Source of the DNA: Prochlorococcus sp. AG-355-O17
GTDB taxonomy: Bacteria > Cyanobacteriota > Cyanobacteriia > PCC-6307 > Cyanobiaceae
NCBI GenBank assembly: GCA_003280655.1
Contig: QCEK01000007.1
Coordinates: 1 to 64,000, forward strand
Direction of reading: 5' to 3'
Length of the DNA: 64,000 nucleotides
Part shown: positions 7,811 through 46,932 of the stretch, in pieces
How positions within the stretch are numbered: the stretch's first letter is position 1
Layout of the letters: the number at the start of each line of letters is the position of its first letter
Notes under the pieces: model-generated
The model's database searches: none
What the model was told of the DNA's origin: nothing
The model's input: the letters and a program-made list of their open reading frames with translations, nothing else
Made by a program: the position numbers and the translations under genes

Positions 7811-8107
7811 ATGATACGTTTACTTATTGCATCAATTCTTTTTTTTACTCCACTAGGAGGTTTTGCTGATGAAAAGCAAAGAGAAATTGAGAATGAAGCT
7901 ATAAATCTTGTTATTAAAAAATATGGAAAAGGCTTAGAAAATAGATTAAAAGGAACAGGAGTAACTCCCAGTTATCGAAGTTGGTATGAAAATGATTGTT
8001 TTGTAAGTATTGCAGCAGGTACATATCAAGAAGATACTTGGTCGGCAATGAAGTGGTTTAGCGTTAATGTCTGTTCTGAATCAGTTGAAATAATGGAAAG
8101 TGAATGA
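7811..8107 (+). CDS. Secreted hypothetical protein (98 aa)
   Basis: The first 19 residues form a signal peptide (MIRLLIASILFFTPLGGFA, cleavage before DEKQ). The mature part is about 78 residues with a YGKGLENRLKG segment and two cysteines (NDCF and NVCSE) that could form a disulfide. Its stop overlaps the start of the amidotransferase by four bases (ATGA), indicating translational coupling. The family is not recognised. Confidence 0.6.
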   Translation: MIRLLIASILFFTPLGGFADEKQREIENEAINLVIKKYGKGLENRLKGTGVTPSYRSWYENDCFVSIAAGTYQEDTWSAMKWFSVNVCSESVEIMESE

Positions 8108-11224: not shown

Positions 11225-11386
11225 TGTCAATTTTTCTAATTTGAAAAAACTTTATTTAGAGAATCAAGAACTTTTCACAATAAATTTCTTTAGTAAGTAA
11301 AAAATCCTATTTTTATATTCTTGTATTTTTGAATACTTATCAAGGGGTTACCTAAATCAGATTATAAAATGAGTCGCATTTTCAAC

Positions 11387-11530
11387 ATGACTCAAAATTC
11401 CATGAACACTCCTTATGCAAAAAGAGTAGCTGAAAAATTTAGAGAGGCTCAAAACTATTTAAAAACTAATGGTTTTAGTAGATCAACTAAACATTTTCTG
11501 GAAGATATTGAAAATTCTGTTGAAAAATAA
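11387..11530 (+). CDS. Small soluble protein (47 aa), hypothetical
   Basis: A 47-residue helical protein (YAKRVAEKFREAQNYL then HFLEDIENSVEK). An in-frame ATG at 11369 exists, but it overlaps a TATAAAAT -10-like block (11363-11370), so the ATG at 11387 is the likelier start. Its TAA overlaps the next ATG (TAATG), so it is translationally coupled to the 52-aa membrane protein. Confidence 0.6.
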   Translation: MTQNSMNTPYAKRVAEKFREAQNYLKTNGFSRSTKHFLEDIENSVEK

Positions 11531-18497: not shown

Positions 18498-19727
18498 TTG
18501 AAATACATTACTGTGCTCGGTTCTACTGGTTCAATAGGGACTCAAACTCTCGAAATAGCTAGTGAGCAGCCTGATAAGTTTAAAGCAGTAGCTCTTTCTG
18601 CAGGAAGAAATATTAATTTATTAACTGAACAAGTTAAAACACATAAACCAGAGGTAGTTGCAATCGAGGATGAAAGTCTTATAGAAGATTTAAAAGATAA
18701 TATTAATAACTTAGATTTGGATGATGCTCCATTGGTTTTAGGTGGTAAGCAGGGGATTAACGCAGTTGCAGCATGGGATAAGGCAGATACTGTAGTAACA
18801 GGGATAGTAGGCTGTGCAGGCTTAATTCCAACAATGTCAGCAATTAATGCGGGGAAAAATATTGCACTTGCTAACAAAGAAACTTTAATTGCGGCAGGAC
18901 CAATTGTTATTCCTGCATTAAAGAAAAATAATAGTAGGCTTTTACCTGCTGACTCAGAACACTCTGCTATCTTTCAATGTTTACAAGGATTACCTAATTA
19001 TGAAAATGCAGATTTTTCAACAGGTGAGATGCCTAAAGGTTTAAAAGCCATACATTTAACAGCTTCTGGTGGTGCTTTCAGAGATTGGGCCGTTGAGGAT
19101 TTAAAACATGTCACAGTGGAAGATGCAACTTCACATCCTAATTGGGATATGGGAAAAAAAATAACTGTAGATTCTGCAACTCTTATGAATAAAGGATTAG
19201 AAGTTATAGAAGCTCATTATTTATTTGGGACCTCTTACGAAAATATCGAAATAGTTATCCACCCTCAAAGTATTATTCATTCAATGATTGAGATGGAAGA
19301 TTCTTCCGTATTAGCTCAATTAGGTTGGCCAGATATGAAACTACCCATTTTATATGCGATGAGTTGGCCTGAAAGATTTAAAACAAATTGGAAAAGATTA
19401 AACCTAAGTGAAATTGGAAAATTAACTTTTAAAGAGCCAGACGAGTTTAAATATCCATGCATGGGACTTGCCTATGCTGCAGGAAAATCTTCTGGGACTA
19501 TGCCTGCAGTCTTAAATGCTGCTAATGAAATGGCTGTTGAACAATTCCTCAAAGAAAAAATTTCTTTTCAAGAAATTCCAAAATTTATAAGTAAAGCTTG
19601 TGAATCACATATGGAGAATTTGAATTTGAGTCCCGAATTGGAGGATATTCTTGAAGTTGATAATTGGGCCAGGCTTTTTGTTAAGCAAGAAATTCAAAAA
19701 GGTAAAAAATACTTAAGTATTGGATAA
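18498..19727 (+). CDS. dxr: 1-deoxy-D-xylulose 5-phosphate reductoisomerase
   Basis: Second step of the MEP isoprenoid pathway: NADPH-dependent conversion of DXP to MEP. It has the NADPH-binding [10 protein letters not shown] (7-16) at the N-terminus, [22 protein letters not shown] with the metal ligands, and TASGGAF and [15 protein letters not shown] for substrate binding. No ATG lies near the N-terminus; the TTG at 18498 gives the family's exact start ([14 protein letters not shown]). Isoprenoids feed chlorophyll phytyl chains, carotenoids and quinones. Confidence 0.97.
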
Positions 19728-22883: not shown

Positions 22884-24014
22884 TCAATTTTCAAAAACTT
22901 TATTTTGAAGAACAACTCCTTCATCGCTTAATAAACATCCAGAAATGAGTTCATCCTCTTTATCTAATTTAATTAGACCATCTTTTATAAATGGTGTAAT
23001 CAAAGATGTTAAGTTCTTAGCATAAAGTGAACTTGCATCATAAGGAACTGAAGAGGGTAATTCCCCCGCTCCAATAAGTTTTACCCCATCTTTGATAATA
23101 GTTTCATTTGATTTTGTTCCTTCGCAGTTCCCTCCTTGAGAAACTGCTAAATCAATAATTACTGCTCCAGGCCTCATTTTTTTAATCATGGGTGAGTCTA
23201 TTAAAACAGGGGCCTTTTTACCTAGAACTTGCGCAGTACATATAGCAACATCAGCTTCAGATAAATATTTAGTTAAAGTTGCCTTCTGTTTTGAGAGGAA
23301 TTCGGGTGTTACAGCTTTTGCATAACCTCCTGACTCTCCTGGTTTTTCCTCAACTTCAGGAAGTTCTATAAATCTTGCTCCGAGGGACTCTACTTGTTCT
23401 TTAACAGCAGGTCTAATATCAGATACAAATACTATTGCTCCAAGTCTTTTTGCTGTCGCAACTGCCTGTAATCCTGCAACGCCTCCACCAAGAACCACTA
23501 CTTTGGCAGGTTGGACTGTCCCAGCTGCAGTCATAAGCATTGGGAAATATCTATCTAACTCACTTGCAGCCAAAAGAACTGCTTTATATCCAGCAATATT
23601 GGCCTGTGAAGAAAGAACATCAGAAGATTGAGCTCTACTAATCCTCGGAAGCAACTCTAGTGATAAAGCTGAAATCTTATTACTATTTATAATCCTTAGA
23701 AGCTCCTTATTACCATATGGGTTAAGAAGACCGAGAAGAACAGCGCCTTTCTTTAACTTAGTTAAATTATCCTCTGATGGACTTTGAACACAAAATATTA
23801 AGTCCGCTTCACTCCAAATTTTTTGATCTAAGTTGTTTATTATTGTTCCGCCCGATTGTTCATATGATAAGTCACTAAATCCTGATAATTTCCCTGCTGA
23901 ACTTTCAATATAAACATCACATCCAAGGCTTTTTAATTTCTTTACCGCTTCTGGTGTAGCTGAAACTCTCCTTTCACCAGAGCTTGTTTCGGAAGGAATA
24001 AGTATCTTTGTCAA
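22884..24014 (-). CDS. pntAA: NAD(P) transhydrogenase subunit alpha part 1 (NAD-binding)
   Basis: A 376-aa soluble domain I, related to alanine dehydrogenase. It has SSGERRVSATPEAVKKL at the N-terminus, the R-Q-D loop equivalent (RISRAQSSDVLSSQANIAGY), Rossmann motif VVLGGGVAGLQAVATAKRLGA, and the mobile-loop region GYAKAVTPEFL. It binds NAD(H) and passes hydride to domain III of PntB. First gene of the operon. Confidence 0.96.
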   Translation of the reverse strand: MTKILIPSETSSGERRVSATPEAVKKLKSLGCDVYIESSAGKLSGFSDLSYEQSGGTIINNLDQKIWSEADLIFCVQSPSEDNLTKLKKGAVLLGLLNPYGNKELLRIINSNKISALSLELLPRISRAQSSDVLSSQANIAGYKAVLLAASELDRYFPMLMTAAGTVQPAKVVVLGGGVAGLQAVATAKRLGAIVFVSDIRPAVKEQVESLGARFIELPEVEEKPGESGGYAKAVTPEFLSKQKATLTKYLSEADVAICTAQVLGKKAPVLIDSPMIKKMRPGAVIIDLAVSQGGNCEGTKSNETIIKDGVKLIGAGELPSSVPYDASSLYAKNLTSLITPFIKDGLIKLDKEDELISGCLLSDEGVVLQNKVFEN

Positions 24015-26923: not shown

Positions 26924-27136
26924 TCAAATTGAAAATTTAATTTCATTAATTATTTGAAGTTGTCCATAGTAAAAATTTGCTTTTGCAATTTTTTCAGAAT
27001 CTTCTAATTGATCAAAAAAAACAAACCCAAGGCTTTCCCATAATGAAGATCCGCAAACATTATTCAATTCATTTTTTGCTTCTTTTGCAAAATTATCTAG
27101 TTTTCGTTCAAGGTTTTTAGACTTAGAAACAGACAT
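26924..27136 (-). CDS. Hypothetical protein (70 aa)
   Basis: A soluble 70-residue protein (SVSKSKNLERKLDNFAKEAK, then SLWESLGFVFFDQL and a C-terminal YYGQLQIINEI). The frame stays open to 27220, which would overlap the end of ycf39, but those residues look unlike a conserved N-terminus. The internal Met at 27136 is chosen, and TATATAAAT-like sequence just upstream could be its promoter. Function unknown. Confidence 0.55.
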   Translation of the reverse strand: MSVSKSKNLERKLDNFAKEAKNELNNVCGSSLWESLGFVFFDQLEDSEKIAKANFYYGQLQIINEIKFSI

Positions 27137-27191
27137 AGGGCAAAAATATTTATATAGTACAAATATACTACCTGTTTCTAAAATTGCAATA

Positions 27192-28154
27192 TTAAAAAGG
27201 TAATCTCTTTTTTTCTTCAATATTAAGATCTGCTTCCATTTCCCTTAATCTTTTAAGTATTTGTTGATAGTACTCCTTTATATAACTCTCTAGTGAGGTC
27301 ATATCCTCTTTTTTAAGTTCCAATATTTCATAAGTTTTGCTCATGTCAGCATCTAATGATTCACCACTACTAGTTACTTCAGCAAAAGCCAATCGCTCAG
27401 AAACATTAAGAGAATCTTGGAAAAAGGAAACTACTTTTTGAGTGACACTAATAAGGAAGGGGGAAACTCTAAAAATTTTCGCCTTTTTTTCACTAAATTT
27501 TTCACATAAAGATATAACTTCATTTGAATCCCACGCTTTGGGTCCTACTAATGGCAATGATGTTCTGTGAGTTTTTTGATTATTTACTGCTGCTACAACA
27601 ACTTTCGCCATATCTTGAGTATTCATGTAAGCAATTTTAGTTGGAGTCCCACTCATCCACACTGCTTGACTATCCAAGATTGGGATTGCGAATTGACTAA
27701 TAACTCCTTGCATAAATGCTGCACATTTGAAAATGGTATATTCTAGATCAGATTTCTCAAGAAGTTTTTCCGTACAATATTTAATGTCCATTAAAGGAAC
27801 ATTTCTAAACTTTTCTGTTAGGAGGATAGAAAGGAATATTACCCTTTTTACGTTTAAAGATTCGCAAGCATTGAATAAGTTAAGTTTCCCATCCCAATCA
27901 ATTTCATAGATACTTCTATGATCATCTGGCCTACTAGTCGCTGCATCAATAACTACTTCAATATCTTGCAATGCATATTGGATATCAGAAGAATTTAATA
28001 AATTACCTTTTGTTAGCTCACAACCCCATTCTTGTAGAAAGGAAGCTTTTCTTGGATTTCTTACAAAGCATCTTACTTCATGTCCCTCTTCTATAGCTTG
28101 CTTTGCTATTTGTCTACCAAGTGTCCCTGTTGCTCCTACTAAAAGAATCTTCAT
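27192..28154 (-). CDS. ycf39: Ycf39-like NAD(P)-binding photosystem II assembly factor
   Basis: A 320-aa atypical short-chain dehydrogenase (NmrA-like). It has N-terminal dinucleotide motif GATGTLGRQIA (8-18), RNPRKASFLQEWG, and DAATSRPDD after the second strand. In cyanobacteria Ycf39 (HCF244 in plants) acts with Hli proteins in delivering chlorophyll to newly made D1, so its presence with five hli genes in the window fits. The length is as expected. petM lies 57 bases upstream on the same strand. Confidence 0.9.
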   Translation of the reverse strand: MKILLVGATGTLGRQIAKQAIEEGHEVRCFVRNPRKASFLQEWGCELTKGNLLNSSDIQYALQDIEVVIDAATSRPDDHRSIYEIDWDGKLNLFNACESLNVKRVIFLSILLTEKFRNVPLMDIKYCTEKLLEKSDLEYTIFKCAAFMQGVISQFAIPILDSQAVWMSGTPTKIAYMNTQDMAKVVVAAVNNQKTHRTSLPLVGPKAWDSNEVISLCEKFSEKKAKIFRVSPFLISVTQKVVSFFQDSLNVSERLAFAEVTSSGESLDADMSKTYEILELKKEDMTSLESYIKEYYQQILKRLREMEADLNIEEKKRLPF

Positions 28155-29348: not shown

Positions 29349-29873
29349 ATGAAACATACATTATCAGTTCTTGTAGAAGATGAATCTGGAGCCTTGAGTA
29401 GAATCTCAGGTCTCTTCGCTAGAAGGGGATTCAACATAGATAGCCTTGCAGTAGGACCTGCAGAATCTAAAGGGATTTCAAGGTTAACAATGGTAGTAGA
29501 GGGTGATGATGAAACTCTTCAACAAATGACTAAGCAACTTAATAAGTTATTTAATGTTCTGGGAGTTGTAGATTTTACTAATCTCGCAGCTGTTGAAAGG
29601 GAATTGATGTTACTAAAAGTTTCATCGAAAGAAGATACTAGGAGTAATATCCTTGATATAGTACAGATTTTCCGTGCAAAAGTTGTTGATGTATCAGATA
29701 TGGCCTTAACTCTCGAGGTAGTTGGAGATCCTGGGAAGTTAGTTGCTCTAGAGAAATTACTCGAGCCATACGGCATCCTTGAAATAGCGAGGACTGGTAA
29801 GGTAGCTCTTAAACGCTCTTCAGGAGTTAATACAGAAATGTTGAAAATAAATAAATACTCTCTAGAAATTTAA
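29349..29873 (+). CDS. ilvH: Acetolactate synthase small (regulatory) subunit
   Basis: A 174-aa regulatory subunit of acetohydroxyacid synthase in branched-chain amino-acid synthesis. It has an N-terminal ACT domain ([31 protein letters not shown] region), valine-site residues in GRGISRLT-type [12 protein letters not shown], and the C-terminal regulatory domain ([26 protein letters not shown]). Its last base pairs overlap the stop codon of the opposing cyclophilin gene. Confidence 0.97.
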
Positions 29874-30526
29874 TTAGATATCTGGACTGACTTGATGTAG
29901 TCTTCTTTATTGATTTTTTCGAGTACGTCTAATCCTTTAATAATCTTTCCAAAAATCGAGTATCTTCCATCTAGTTCTTGGATCTTAGTCGTTACAAAAA
30001 AAAATTCAGTAGATGAAGACTTATTCTTACCGCTTTTAACCATAGCGATTGATCCACTCTCAAAAGTATTAACTAAATTTAATGTTTCACTAGGATTTTT
30101 TATTTGATAGTTATATCTTGGTTTTATTTCTTCTTTGAATTTTATTTCTAAAGGTATTGTTGGACTTGTCTTATTCAGGTTTTGTTTTCGTTCTATATAA
30201 GATTTATTTTCTGGATTAACGCCGCCATGTATAAACCTTATTTGGGGATAATTTATTATTTTATAAAATTTTTTATTTTCATAAATATTATTGTCTATGT
30301 TTTCCAGAAAATTTGATACTGTTACTGGGTTATCTTTACCAAATAATTTTACCTTAAAATCACCTTTTGAAGTTTTAAAATTGACTACTTTATTACTCTG
30401 AATACAACTAAATTTAAGTTTTTGGCAGTAATAATTTGGATCAATCTTACTCTTATAACTACAAGCTTGAACCAAAAATAAAACCTGTATAAAAGAAAAT
30501 GTTTTTAAAAAATATTTTTTTTTTAT
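29870..30526 (-). CDS. Cyclophilin-type peptidyl-prolyl isomerase, predicted lipoprotein (likely AUA start)
   Basis: Cyclophilin-fold PPIase: [61 protein letters not shown] and the [19 protein letters not shown] ending. The only usual start is a TTG (30475), which would begin inside a lipoprotein signal. Upstream the frame reads [21 protein letters not shown], a perfect n-region, h-region and lipobox. The first codon after the Shine-Dalgarno is ATA at 30526, with GGAGG seven bases before it. ATA overlaps ycf4's TAA as ATAA. I therefore place the start at 30526 (218 aa). The product would be a membrane-anchored foldase. Confidence 0.8.
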
Positions 30527-31080
30527 TTTAGGCCCTCCAAATTAACATCCAAAAATTTAGCCAAACGAGCTCCTTCTTCTTCAACCTGAAGCAATGGTTT
30601 TAGTTCACCTGCTCCGCTTAAAGGGAGAGGTTTTTTTCTACCTTTTAAAACTAAAGCAATTCTTCTTCTAGGATTAAATCCCTCACTTATATCCAACTTA
30701 ACAGATTTAATTTCATCAAAATCTAATTTAACTTCGACATCTTTAAATAATCCCTTTCTTTTTATTTCTACAGATTTTGAGGATTTATCAAAATAATTAC
30801 TTCCTGAACCAAAGTTTATGTAAACCAAATACCACAAGTAAAAATTTAATAAATTAGCTATTACTCCGTATGCTCCCATTATTATTCCTTGAGGAATAAA
30901 CAACAAAGTTGAAGGATTTCCTAAAGGCAATAAATCCCTTCCTGTATAGCTAGATATAGAGGCCAAAAGGAAACCAATACCTCCTATAGTCAACATTCCT
31001 CCAATAATATAATTTGAAATTTTTCTTGATCCACCAATTTTTTGTTCGATTTTATCGAATGACGTGAGGTCTGAATTCAT
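30523..31080 (-). CDS. ycf4: Photosystem I assembly protein Ycf4
   Basis: A 185-aa thylakoid protein needed for PSI assembly. It has two membrane helices (about 25-48 and 62-90, with PQGIIMGAYG between), then a cytoplasmic domain with ISEGFNPRRRIALVLKGRK and PLSGAGELKPL, the conserved Ycf4 signature, ending EEEGARLAKFL. It is divergent from psbD. Its stop overlaps the cyclophilin start. Confidence 0.95.
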   Translation of the reverse strand: MNSDLTSFDKIEQKIGGSRKISNYIIGGMLTIGGIGFLLASISSYTGRDLLPLGNPSTLLFIPQGIIMGAYGVIANLLNFYLWYLVYINFGSGSNYFDKSSKSVEIKRKGLFKDVEVKLDFDEIKSVKLDISEGFNPRRRIALVLKGRKKPLPLSGAGELKPLLQVEEEGARLAKFLDVNLEGLK

Positions 31081-31262: not shown

Positions 31263-32339
31263 ATGACGATCGCAGTTGGTAGCGCCCCACAAAGAGGATG
31301 GTTTGATGTCCTCGATGATTGGTTGAAGCGCGACCGCTTTGTATTTATTGGTTGGTCCGGACTACTTCTACTTCCTTGTGCATATCTTGCTATAGGCGGT
31401 TGGTTTGTCGGAACAACATTTGTTACCTCCTGGTACACACACGGAGTTGCAAGCTCATACCTTGAAGGTTGTAACTTTTTAACAGCAGCTGTAAGCACCC
31501 CTGGTGATGCCATGGGACACAGTCTTCTATTTTTATGGGGTCCTGAAGCCCAAGGTAGTTTCGTAAGATGGCTACAACTTGGAGGTCTTTGGAACTTCGT
31601 TGCATTACATGGAGTATTTGGCCTAATTGGTTTTATGCTTCGTCAGTTTGAAATTGCTGGCCTTGTTGGAATTAGACCATACAACGCACTAGCTTTCTCA
31701 GCTGTAATCGCAGTATTCACAAGTATTTTCCTTATTTATCCTTTAGGACAGCATAGTTGGTTCTTCGCACCTTCATTTGGTGTTGCAGCAATCTTCCGTT
31801 ACATTCTGTTCATTCAAGGTTTTCACAATATCACTTTAAATCCATTTCACATGATGGGTGTTGCTGGAATTCTTGGTGGTGCTCTACTTTGCGCTATCCA
31901 TGGAGCTACAGTACAGAACACTTTGTATGAAGATACAAGTATTTATACAGATGGTAAGGTTCAAAGTTCAACATTCAGAGCTTTTGACCCAACTCAAGAA
32001 GAAGAAACTTATTCAATGATTACAGCGAATAGATTCTGGAGTCAAATCTTTGGTATTGCTTTCTCAAACAAGCGTTTCTTACACTTCTTGATGTTATTTG
32101 TACCTGTAATGGGTATGTGGACATCTTCAATTGGTATTGTCGGATTAGCACTAAACTTAAGAGCTTATGATTTCGTAAGCCAAGAAATCCGTGCTGCAGA
32201 AGATCCAGAATTTGAAACTTTCTATACAAAAAATATACTTTTGAACGAAGGTATGCGAGCATGGATGTCTTCTGTGGATCAACCACACGAAAACTTTGTA
32301 TTCCCTGAGGAGGTTCTTCCACGTGGAAACGCCCTTTAA
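31263..32339 (+). CDS. psbD: Photosystem II D2 protein
   Basis: Reaction-centre core protein of PSII: five helices, binds P680 chlorophylls, pheophytin, Q-A and non-heme iron. [20 protein letters not shown] start, [35 protein letters not shown] (iron and Q-A site His) and the [10 protein letters not shown] ending are diagnostic; the tail carries the last bases of psbC's start region. At 358 aa it is slightly longer than the usual 352. Its promoter must lie in the 182 bases shared with ycf4. Confidence 0.99.
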
Positions 32340-34441: not shown

Positions 34442-35971
34442 ATGGGGTTAGAAGCAAAATTACATGAAATAAAGAGACCAATAATGGTCCTAGGCACTTC
34501 CAGTGGAGCGGGAAAATCATTAACGGTTACTGCTATTTGCAGGATTATTAAAAATTTAGGAGAAGAACCAATACCTTTTAAAGGGCAAAATATGAGTAAC
34601 AACGCTTGGGTTGATTGGGAAGGTGGAGAGATGGCGTATTCACAAGCACTTCAAGCTTTTGCTTGTGGTACTAATCCCTCTGCAGAGATGAATCCCATTT
34701 TATTAAAACCACAAGGAAACTCAATAAGCGAGGTGATTCACCTTGGCAAAAGCATAGGAACCACAACCGCAAAAAATTACTATAAAGATTGGTTTATTCC
34801 TGGCTGGGAAGTAATTAAAAAAAGTTTAAAGTCGATTTACGAAGGGAATCCTGACTGTCGTTTAATTATTGAAGGAGCTGGAAGTCCTGTAGAGATGAAT
34901 TTGATTCATAGAGATCTGACTAATTTAAGAGTTGCTAAGTATTTAAATGCAAATTGCATTTTGGTTACTGATATTGAAAGGGGAGGTGTATTCGCACAAA
35001 TAATTGGTACTCTTGAATTAATGAAACCTGAAGAAAAGAAGCTTATTAAGGGAATTATTATAAATAGATTCAGAGGAGACCTTACATTATTTGAAGAAGG
35101 GAAAAAGTGGATCGAGGATAAAACTCAAATCCCTGTTATTGGAATTATTCCATGGTTAAATGATTCATTTCCTCCGGAGGACTCTTTAGATTTGCTTGAA
35201 AGAAAATCCCATTTAAATAATCCTGAATTAAAAATTGGAATTGTAAAGTTGCCCTCTATAAGCAACTTTTCAGATTTTGACCCTTTAGAAAATGAAGAAA
35301 CAATATTAATTGAATGGATTAGAGAATCACAAAACCTTAGTAAGTATGACTTCATTATTCTGCCGGGCAGTAAACAAACGATTAAAGATCAAATATTTCT
35401 TGAAAATTCTGGCTTATCAGAGGATATAAGGGAATATTCAAATAACAAAGGGAATATTATTGGAATATGTGGAGGTTTACAAATGTTAGGGACTACACTT
35501 GAAGATCCTTATTTTAAAGAGGGTTCCAAAAATTATTCTGAACAAAAAATTAAAGGGATTGGATTACTACCATTAAAAACTACTTTCTTTAAAAAAAAAT
35601 TAACACGTCAAATCAACTCTGAGTCTATATGGCCATGCCAATCAGAAATTAATGGATTTGAAATTCATAATGGACAAACGAAATTAGATAAAACTCAAAA
35701 CTCATTAGATATTAAACCTATCTTCAAAGATTTAGATCTAGGTTGGTATAAAGAAAATAATGAGGGCGGAACAATCGCAGGAACATATATTCATGGGATA
35801 TTTGAAAATGATAGTTGGAGAGATCAATATATAGATTTAATAAGGAAGGGTAAAAATTTACCATTATTAAATAAAAAATCAATATCTTATAAAAAAAAGA
35901 GAGAATCCATTATTAATAATCTTGCTAATGAATTCAATAAACATTTAAATCTCAAATCATTTTTAAGTTGA
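34442..35971 (+). CDS. cobQ: Cobyric acid synthase
   Basis: A 509-aa glutamine-dependent amidase adding four amide groups to adenosylcobyrinate a,c-diamide in (pseudo)cobalamin synthesis. It has an N-terminal ATPase-like domain (VLGTSSGAGKSLTVTAICR, FKGQNMSNNAWV), the linker LIIEGAGSPVEMNL, and a C-terminal class I amidotransferase domain with PGSKQTIKDQ, nucleophile GICGGLQMLG (about 342-351) and GTYIHGIFEND. Its TGA overlaps the TTG start of the ferredoxin. Confidence 0.97.
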   Translation: MGLEAKLHEIKRPIMVLGTSSGAGKSLTVTAICRIIKNLGEEPIPFKGQNMSNNAWVDWEGGEMAYSQALQAFACGTNPSAEMNPILLKPQGNSISEVIHLGKSIGTTTAKNYYKDWFIPGWEVIKKSLKSIYEGNPDCRLIIEGAGSPVEMNLIHRDLTNLRVAKYLNANCILVTDIERGGVFAQIIGTLELMKPEEKKLIKGIIINRFRGDLTLFEEGKKWIEDKTQIPVIGIIPWLNDSFPPEDSLDLLERKSHLNNPELKIGIVKLPSISNFSDFDPLENEETILIEWIRESQNLSKYDFIILPGSKQTIKDQIFLENSGLSEDIREYSNNKGNIIGICGGLQMLGTTLEDPYFKEGSKNYSEQKIKGIGLLPLKTTFFKKKLTRQINSESIWPCQSEINGFEIHNGQTKLDKTQNSLDIKPIFKDLDLGWYKENNEGGTIAGTYIHGIFENDSWRDQYIDLIRKGKNLPLLNKKSISYKKKRESIINNLANEFNKHLNLKSFLS

Positions 35972-45716: not shown

Positions 45717-45941
45717 TTGAAAACTTCAAAATGCTGGGTTTGGTTTAAAGGTAGCCTTAACAATGGTGGTTATTGGAAAGAAGGGTTTTCTTGTACTTAT
45801 GATGAGAAACCAGGAGTTTTAATAGAAAGCCCTGCTTACGTAACTTGTCGAGTTCCTACATGGAGAGTTTTGACTAAAGAACCAGAAAATTTATATAAAT
45901 CTCCTCTAATTCCTGACAAAGCAATCTGGAAAATAATTTAA
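45717..45941 (+). CDS. Hypothetical protein (74 aa), TTG start
   Basis: A 74-aa soluble protein rich in Trp, Cys and Tyr: CWVWFKGSLNNGGYWKEGF, CTYDEKPGVLIESPAYVTCR, RVPTWRVLTKEPE. No ATG occurs; TTG 45717 is the start. The composition looks like a small beta-sheet protein. Not recognised, though the codon pattern is convincing. Confidence 0.6.
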   Translation: MKTSKCWVWFKGSLNNGGYWKEGFSCTYDEKPGVLIESPAYVTCRVPTWRVLTKEPENLYKSPLIPDKAIWKII

Positions 45942-46146
45942 ATTCTCAATTAATAATAAAAAACTTTTTGACTGCACTATGGCGAGTTAATATTGCTTTA
46001 ATAAATATTTAATTAATACCATCTACTCTCTTTTTATAAATATTATCCCTTTTTTAATCTTCGGTTTTCTTCTGGGAAAAAAGAATCCAAAGATTTCCAA
46101 ATATATAGCAAGACCTCTAATAAGATTTGGAATTCCATTAAGTGTA

Positions 46147-46932
46147 ATGGGTCTCCTACTAAAAGAAGGTATAGATATAAACCTAATTAAAAGTGCATTT
46201 TTAGCATTCTCAGTAATTGGATTTTTAATAACTTTAATTAATATAATCCCAATAATTAATAAAAGGCTTCCAAATTACACATTGCAGCTAGCAGGCCTAA
46301 TAGGTAATACATCATTTCTTGGGATACCAATTGCATTAGCTCTTCTACCTTCAACAACTATAAATTTCACTATAGGATTTGATTTGGGAACAACACTTTT
46401 CGCTTGGATATTTGGACCTTTTTTTCTTCAAGAAAAATCCAAAAATAATAATATCCTAAACATAAAAGGATTATTAAATGCATTAATAAATAGTCCTGCA
46501 TCAAGAGGGATAATTGGTGTACTTCTTGCCTATCTTTTCCAAATAGATGAAATTTTAGGAAATTACCTTTGGATTCCTGCAAGAATTGTTATTGCTTTGG
46601 CAATAATAATTGTGGGAACAAGACTTGGAATAATCACAACTCAAAATGAGAGGATATTGGATCTAAATGAAGAAATTAAATTTTCAATTTTATTAAAGTT
46701 ATTCATTCTTCCCTTTATTATTTTTTTAGTATGCAAATTTTTAAATTTTAACTTCTATCAATCATCTGCAGTAATTCTTCAGGCGGCAACCCCAACGGCA
46801 ATATCCACAATATTAATGGCTGAGGCTTATGGAGTGAAACAAAAAATAGCTTCAAAAATTCTTTTTACTACAACCTTAATTTCAATAATTACAATTCCTC
46901 TATTAAAAATTTTTATAAATTTATTTATTTAA
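46147..46932 (+). CDS. AEC (auxin efflux carrier) family permease
   Basis: A membrane permease of the AEC/BASS-like superfamily, with about eight helices in the called part: LAGLIGNTSFLGIPIALAL, the SPASRGIIGVLLAYLF region, and the inverted second repeat with QAATPTAISTILMAEAYGV. The first ATG is 46147, but the same frame continues upstream with conserved-looking sequence (INIIPFLIFGFLLGKKNPK and RPLIRFGIPLSVMG), i.e. the missing first helix. No ATG, GTG or TTG lies between a stop at 45988 and 46147, so the real start is probably non-standard and near 46015-46021. Confidence 0.82.
   Translation: MGLLLKEGIDINLIKSAFLAFSVIGFLITLINIIPIINKRLPNYTLQLAGLIGNTSFLGIPIALALLPSTTINFTIGFDLGTTLFAWIFGPFFLQEKSKNNNILNIKGLLNALINSPASRGIIGVLLAYLFQIDEILGNYLWIPARIVIALAIIIVGTRLGIITTQNERILDLNEEIKFSILLKLFILPFIIFLVCKFLNFNFYQSSAVILQAATPTAISTILMAEAYGVKQKIASKILFTTTLISIITIPLLKIFINLFI

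Follow-up and report, generated by a model that had tools for sequence, protein, structure and literature searches.

The stretch of DNA analysed here (the window) comprises 64,000 nucleotides of Prochlorococcus sp. AG-355-O17. On its minus strand, ycf4 (30523-31080), which codes for a photosystem I assembly protein (Pfam PF02392, E = 2.1e-54; NCBIfam NF002712, 266.5 bits, the cut-off being 220), is the upstream partner of a gene whose product, read from an AUA codon through 218 codons and a stop (30526-29870), is a predicted cyclophilin-type peptidyl-prolyl isomerase (Pfam PF00160, residues 48-209, E = 1.3e-26; 94.2 bits against a gathering score of 21.7). The frame of the latter ends at the stop codon at 29872-29870, and there the gene overlaps tail to tail, by four bases (29870-29873), with the gene for the acetolactate synthase small subunit on the plus strand (29349-29873). 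When the minus strand was read again, the junction proved to be as the original prediction had described it: a GGAGG Shine-Dalgarno (SD) sequence (30538-30534) within the last ycf4 codons is followed by seven bases and then by ATA (30526-30524), the probable start of the cyclophilin gene, which has the bases TA in common with the ycf4 stop TAA (30525-30523), and the two genes thus form an ATAA overlap (30526-30523) in the −4 register. The 3' end of ycf4 reads ...TTG GAG GGC CTA AAA TAA, and the cyclophilin frame, one base back from it, reads GGA GGG CCT AAA ATA AAA AAA AAA TAT.... The preceding stop in this frame lies five codons before ATA, and the codons between them (TTT GGA GGG CCT AAA) include no ATG, GTG or TTG, again as claimed. 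From ATA to the Cys codon of the lipobox (30463-30461) the frame encodes a putative lipoprotein signal peptide (30526-30461), in which the sole ATG, GTG or TTG is the TTG at 30475-30473, four codons before the Cys.

The 16S rRNA gene of the window genome ends, in the matched stretch, with GGATCACCTCC, which contains the anti-SD sequence CCTCC. The string GGAGG-N7-ATA alone is common enough, occurring four times on the two strands of the window, and no strong RNA structure was detected at the junction (z = +1.1). The ATGA overlaps that had been listed at 8104, 13991 and 53595 are real, and a TTGA overlap is present at 35968. A second ATAA overlap, at 19724, was set aside as ordinary because a GTG lies two codons on.

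Two explanations of the ATA had been put forward, namely that AUA is used as an initiator with the help of coupling and a strong SD sequence, or that a recent change from ATG to ATA has damaged the gene, and an alignment of the junction across Prochlorococcus had been proposed as the test. We carried out this alignment. A protein search of 266 genomes of the genus gave a match, other cyclophilins included, in 246, and the junction was read in 146 of the 266, with one locus per genome. ATA was found seven bases after GGAGG in all 146 loci, each from a distinct genome, and it was in frame in 144; protein identity among the genus loci compared ranged from 43 to 100%. A further set of loci, mostly from the same genomes and including strains MIT 9314 and MIT 9401, also had ATA (80/80). 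A junction pattern that allows either ATA or ATG fitted 186 of the 266 genomes. Its ATG form fitted a single genome (G059), on a contig other than the one carrying ycf4, and the ycf4 junction of that same genome is ATAA; the pattern search of the 266 genomes thus found no ATG form at ycf4. Because the ATG form is nearly absent, the 186 genomes fitting the pattern, not all of which were listed individually, can be taken to carry ATA. Eighty genomes fell outside the pattern, and some of the loci read among them (such as L082, L100 and L101) have ATA in a slightly different context. In two genomes, G067 and G120 (rated 99% and 94% complete), the junction pattern was absent and no lipoprotein gene was detected at E = 1e-20, owing either to gene loss or to a contig gap.

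The two loci in which ATA is out of frame (L100 in G118 and L293 in G024) have a frame slip downstream of it. In L100 a TTG stands in frame after the slip, possibly through an error, possibly as a genuine change of start. In a third genome (G185, L294) the lipoprotein gene is broken, yet the pattern search found ATAA there. In all, frame slips occur in the lipoprotein gene of these three genomes, in two of them within the signal region. L294 was omitted from the counts because its gene is broken, and L100 and L293 were omitted from the tree and the selection test because of their slips. A run of A residues follows ATA, which is an error-prone place, and one could therefore suspect a sequencing error, a recent mutation or a decaying gene. 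Against this, the 146 loci with ATA come from distinct assemblies, the A run varies in length from 1 to 11, and the mature part of the protein has a pN/pS of 0.30. The variation in run length, with only four A residues in L027 and L117, led us to reject slippage in the run as a general cause. The genus comparison refutes error and recent mutation, and we give the whole explanation virtually no weight. Given ATA in 146 of 146 loci and the conserved SD sequence, ATA appears to be an old, selected feature rather than the mark of a damaged gene. Of the two explanations originally put forward, the alignment thus favors initiation at AUA.

We next consider the ycf4 side of the junction. The ycf4 stop codon is TAA in 142 and TAG in 4 of the 146 loci and is never TGA, and an NTGA overlap is accordingly absent, every locus having ATAA or ATAG. 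Few of the conserved ORFs in the window stop at TGA (6 of 65), and a ycf4 stop of TA(A/G) fixes two bases of ATA; the missing ATGA is for these reasons only moderately telling, and weak evidence by itself. The synonymous positions of ycf4 were more informative. We tallied its last 40 sense codons in the 146 loci and, using a tree inferred solely from the cyclophilin gene (144 tips), counted third-position changes by Fitch parsimony. Only three of the 40 third positions, those of codons −5, −4 and −1, showed no change, while the other 37 changed 2 to 37 times. In all 146 loci codon −5 is YTG, codon −4 is GAG and codon −1 ends in A, and the three unchanged positions coincide with precisely those bases of GGAGG and ATA that the Ycf4 sequence does not dictate. 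At the four other Glu codons of the ycf4 tail, GAA is used in 86-97% of the loci that have Glu there; GAG is not rare in itself, accounting for 216 of 893 Glu codons in the longer ORFs of the window. Similarly, the third position of the other five Lys codons of the tail changed 5 to 9 times, that of codon −1 never. Since codons −5, −4 and −1 are unchanged at bases that ycf4 leaves free, the SD sequence and the first base of ATA must be held by something besides the Ycf4 sequence.

These counts bear on a reading in which ATA is a mere by-product of the ycf4 stop and translation really begins at a different non-canonical codon in the vicinity, for instance a later AUU or UUA. Such a by-product would be understandable, as TA are the first two bases of TAA or TAG and the A is the third base of the last ycf4 codon. 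That third base, however, is free for ycf4 (Lys AAA or AAG, Arg AGA or AGG) and has never changed. In addition, when spacings of 5 to 10 behind GGAGG were compared, ATA stood at spacing 7 in 146 of 146 loci, whereas the triplets at spacings 5, 6, 8, 9 and 10 differ, comprising AAA/AGA, AAT/GAT, the stop and mixed A/G-rich triplets. We consider the by-product reading improbable. A canonical start served by the same SD sequence was also sought: no ATG, GTG or TTG lies behind GGAGG at a spacing of 3 to 15 in any frame in the 146 loci, and a TTG at spacing 2 is present in three of them.

Because the ATA frame is −1 relative to ycf4 and A_AAA precedes the stop in 139 of 146 loci, one could envisage that a programmed −1 frameshift just before the ycf4 stop yields a Ycf4-cyclophilin fusion with ATA read as Ile. 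According to the passages available from one study, an upstream SD-like element can stimulate bacterial frameshifting; the same passages rank A_AA.A last of six tetramers and describe tetramers without a downstream stimulator as, on average, barely over background (PMC4066793). The slip motif is broken in seven of the 146 loci (AAGATAA in 2, GAAATAG in 2, GAAATAA, GAGATAA and TAAATAA in 1 each), yet GGAGG and ATA are kept in them, and no conserved slippery motif of the form Z_ZZN or X_XXZ_ZZN was found. Furthermore, a complete signal peptide, including a positive N-region of its own, is encoded at the junction, and in other genera a canonical start is available at the junction (see below). The frameshift fusion is thus disfavored, and we regard it as an outside chance.

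Bacterial lipoprotein signals consist of a positively charged N-region, a hydrophobic core and a lipobox with an invariant Cys. The product read from ATA resembles a bacterial lipoprotein in these respects, judging from its sequence: residues 2-9 carry a net charge of +1 to +5, and none of the 144 sequences lacks the lipobox Cys, which most commonly stands at the end of VQAC (70/144). To evaluate selection on the signal, pN/pS was computed from 800 pairs sampled out of the 3734 pairs with more than 80% identity. The segment from ATA to the Cys gave 0.52 in the lipoprotein frame, compared with 1.48 and 0.98 when either of the other frames was read, which indicates that the signal peptide is under selection at the protein level in the ATA frame.

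A different possibility is that translation starts at a downstream TTG or GTG, at 30475-30473 in the window, to produce a cytosolic cyclophilin that lacks the signal. We tallied canonical triplets in 143 loci, leaving L082, L100 and L293 out of the 146. The first one before the Cys lies 3-6 codons from it in 118 loci, 7 codons in 2, 10-11 codons in 3 and 12-17 codons in 5, and it could serve as a start in these last five loci. A TTG or GTG close before the Cys is therefore found in most loci, as this reading needs; however, 15 of the 143, including that of G033 (L136), have no ATG, GTG or TTG between ATA and the Cys. A start at the downstream TTG is also at odds with the protein-level selection on the codons upstream of it, and it leaves the conservation of GGAGG without explanation. 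The TTG of the window, four codons before the Cys, was rejected as the start on the basis of this distance and of the 15 loci, and we judge the downstream-start reading to be very improbable, more so than either the by-product or the frameshift. The pN/pS values, the Cys and the triplet tally together argue that the signal is translated in the ATA frame, upstream of any usual start.

Elsewhere in the family the lipoprotein gene likewise follows ycf4, in each of the 57 loci read from other genera. In 34 of these loci, from 29 genera, an in-frame canonical triplet precedes the signal (ATG in 21, TTG in 11 and GTG in 2). Eight of the 34 have a true NTGA overlap in the same −4 register. In one genus (g56), TTG precedes the signal in 23 of 23 loci (L253, L254, L271 and L315-L334), where it arises from the Leu and Glu codons of ycf4 and lies 11 bases ahead of the stop of that gene. 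This TTG seems to be used as a start, and the start position would then have moved within the family. The triplets counted in the 57 loci are the first candidates by rule rather than proven starts, and in some loci the first Cys was taken, which may not be that of the lipobox. In a tree of ycf4 and the cyclophilin gene, 14 loci of the Prochlorococcus genus formed one clade with support of 100 among 37 others, and the sister of this clade is uncertain (g56, at a support of 51). With canonical starts available in other genera and a single genus clade, the AUA start probably arose once, on the long stem branch. In an AT-rich lineage, a TGA-to-TAA change of the ycf4 stop would convert ATGA to ATAA in one step; if g56 is the sister genus, another path to ATAA is possible.

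We also examined whether other genes of the window could have AUN starts. A loose rule flagged 30 of the 65 conserved ORFs, most of them because of alignments that extend slightly, by a few codons, beyond the first canonical start. When conservation for at least 12 codons upstream was demanded in every aligned relative, six ORFs remained, namely the cyclophilin gene and those at 45991, 32245, 11333, 23140 and 27012. The frame at 32245, which we take from its sequence to be psbC, has its candidate start region in an overlap with the preceding gene. The frames at 11333-11530, 23140-23325 and 27012-27203, all on the plus strand, are short and either have no canonical start or are conserved over 12 or more codons ahead of the first one; the latter two may be shadow frames. 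Under a stricter rule, 2 of 42 ORFs were flagged in a neighboring region of a relative, one of which has a plausible TTG, the other (82974-83162) being a 62-codon frame that lacks a canonical start.

The remaining ORF, which encodes an AEC-type transporter (45991-46932, plus strand; PF03547), is possibly a second case, as judged from alignment. Its first in-frame ATG, GTG or TTG is codon 52, and its first membrane helix is conserved upstream of that codon. AUC or AUU lies just before the helix in 35 of 35 aligned rows (34 genomes), TTG being present in one (L369), and an in-frame stop lies close upstream in seven of the 35. No obvious SD sequence was seen in the start region of these 35 rows. 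In 14 loci of other genera, ATG (8) or TTG (6, in g56) is found near the same point. Upstream of the transporter (45900-46010, and loci L355-L384), a block CTTTTTGACT...AGTTAATATTGC is conserved in most rows. The block resembles a promoter located near the start, suggesting that the leader of the transporter may be short.

AUA is a start codon rarely used by bacteria. The E. coli infC gene starts with AUU, and so, reportedly, does E. coli pcnB, whose expression this start is said to limit; neither is known to have a stop/start overlap of the ATAA type. The probable start of the cyclophilin gene resembles both in being a rare AUN codon, and differs from them in that it is AUA rather than AUU. 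In the Prochlorococcus genus, infC starts with ATG directly after TGA in the nine loci that could be read (L301-L306 and L308-L310). A closer parallel comes from Staphylococcus aureus, for which the available passages of a start-site profiling study describe AUA starts at infC, ccpN and citZ, with extended SD sequences at infC and ccpN and conservation of the ccpN AUA start in B. subtilis (PMC13009471). In the reporters described there, AUA in ccpN and citZ gave about 10% of the AUG level in poor medium, and in ccpN up to 30% in rich medium (PMC13009471). AUA behind a strong SD sequence is common to both systems, as is conservation in the case of ccpN, and the yield is reduced in the staphylococcal case. 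As presented in those passages, which mention no stop/start overlap, the staphylococcal genes, by contrast, belong to Bacillota and encode a repressor, IF3 and citrate synthase (citZ being limited to one strain lineage) (PMC13009471). The present junction has a −4 overlap and lies in a cyanobacterium, and canonical starts are available at the same gene in other genera. The −4 register, in which start and stop have two bases in common, is that of the NTGA coupled pairs dealt with in the accessible part of another report (PMC12548453); unlike these, the junction is ATAA and its start is not NTG, so that ATAA may work like an NTGA pair without being one.

As to the protein, the best solved match was the Alr5059 protein (7a73), among cyanobacterial and plastid lumenal cyclophilins (E = 1.4e-12, query residues 44-215 against 178-354 of the chain). 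The two differ in that the product discussed here is a putative lipoprotein of 218 codons, which aligns with no more than the C-terminal portion of the 375-residue chain. The terms AUA and ATA are absent from the accessible portion of the text of a study on start-codon changes in 36 genome groups (PMC5622118), and among the titles and abstract openings found in a search of the open-licence literature, none dealt with an AUA start in Prochlorococcus or with the ycf4/cyclophilin pair. Conserved AUA starts are known elsewhere, and the probable genus-wide one described here is a variant of that kind.

At the sequence level, the junction has the features expected of a conserved AUN start, with no usable canonical start, the same codon across species and a strong SD sequence at a proper spacing, and initiation at AUA is well supported by them. 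The −4 register and the S. aureus AUA starts lead us to read the site as a weak start that is rescued by GGAGG and by ribosomes from ycf4. In this model, GGAGG in the last sense codons of ycf4 would hold a 30S subunit, or the ribosome finishing ycf4, over ATAA, and the initiator tRNA would pair with AUA despite a mismatch at the third position. The product would start with the lipoprotein signal, be exported, be lipidated at Cys22 and carry the cyclophilin domain. AUA would hold synthesis low and linked to ycf4 translation, and initiation would be expected to be sensitive to IF3. We infer that AUA initiates translation in vivo and that it gains sufficient efficiency from its coupling to ycf4. 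To the reading as a whole, in which a weak AUA start held by the SD sequence and coupled to ycf4 gives an exported and lipidated product, we assign a probability of roughly 0.86.

A bolder proposal, which we regard as tentative and rather doubtful, is that AUA has been favored by selection as a start that works through coupling only, being too weak for a free 30S subunit and open only to ribosomes that have just terminated ycf4 at UAA or UAG and are held by the internal GGAGG. ATAA would then constitute a distinct class of overlap, by which a lipoprotein chaperone is kept in a set proportion to a photosystem I assembly factor, and AUN starts would occur in further genes of the genus, for example in the transporter gene at 45991-46932.

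Gene callers limited to ATG, GTG and TTG would truncate the cyclophilin protein inside its signal and hide its likely export and lipidation; the conservation of an SD sequence at synonymous sites of an upstream gene offers a comparative route to other starts hidden in this way. An AUA start kept throughout the genus, behind an SD sequence frozen at synonymous sites, is also a natural test of selection for weak starts. Because a single base change, from TAA to TGA, is silent for ycf4 and would give ATG, the junction allows the adaptive value of AUA to be tested cleanly.
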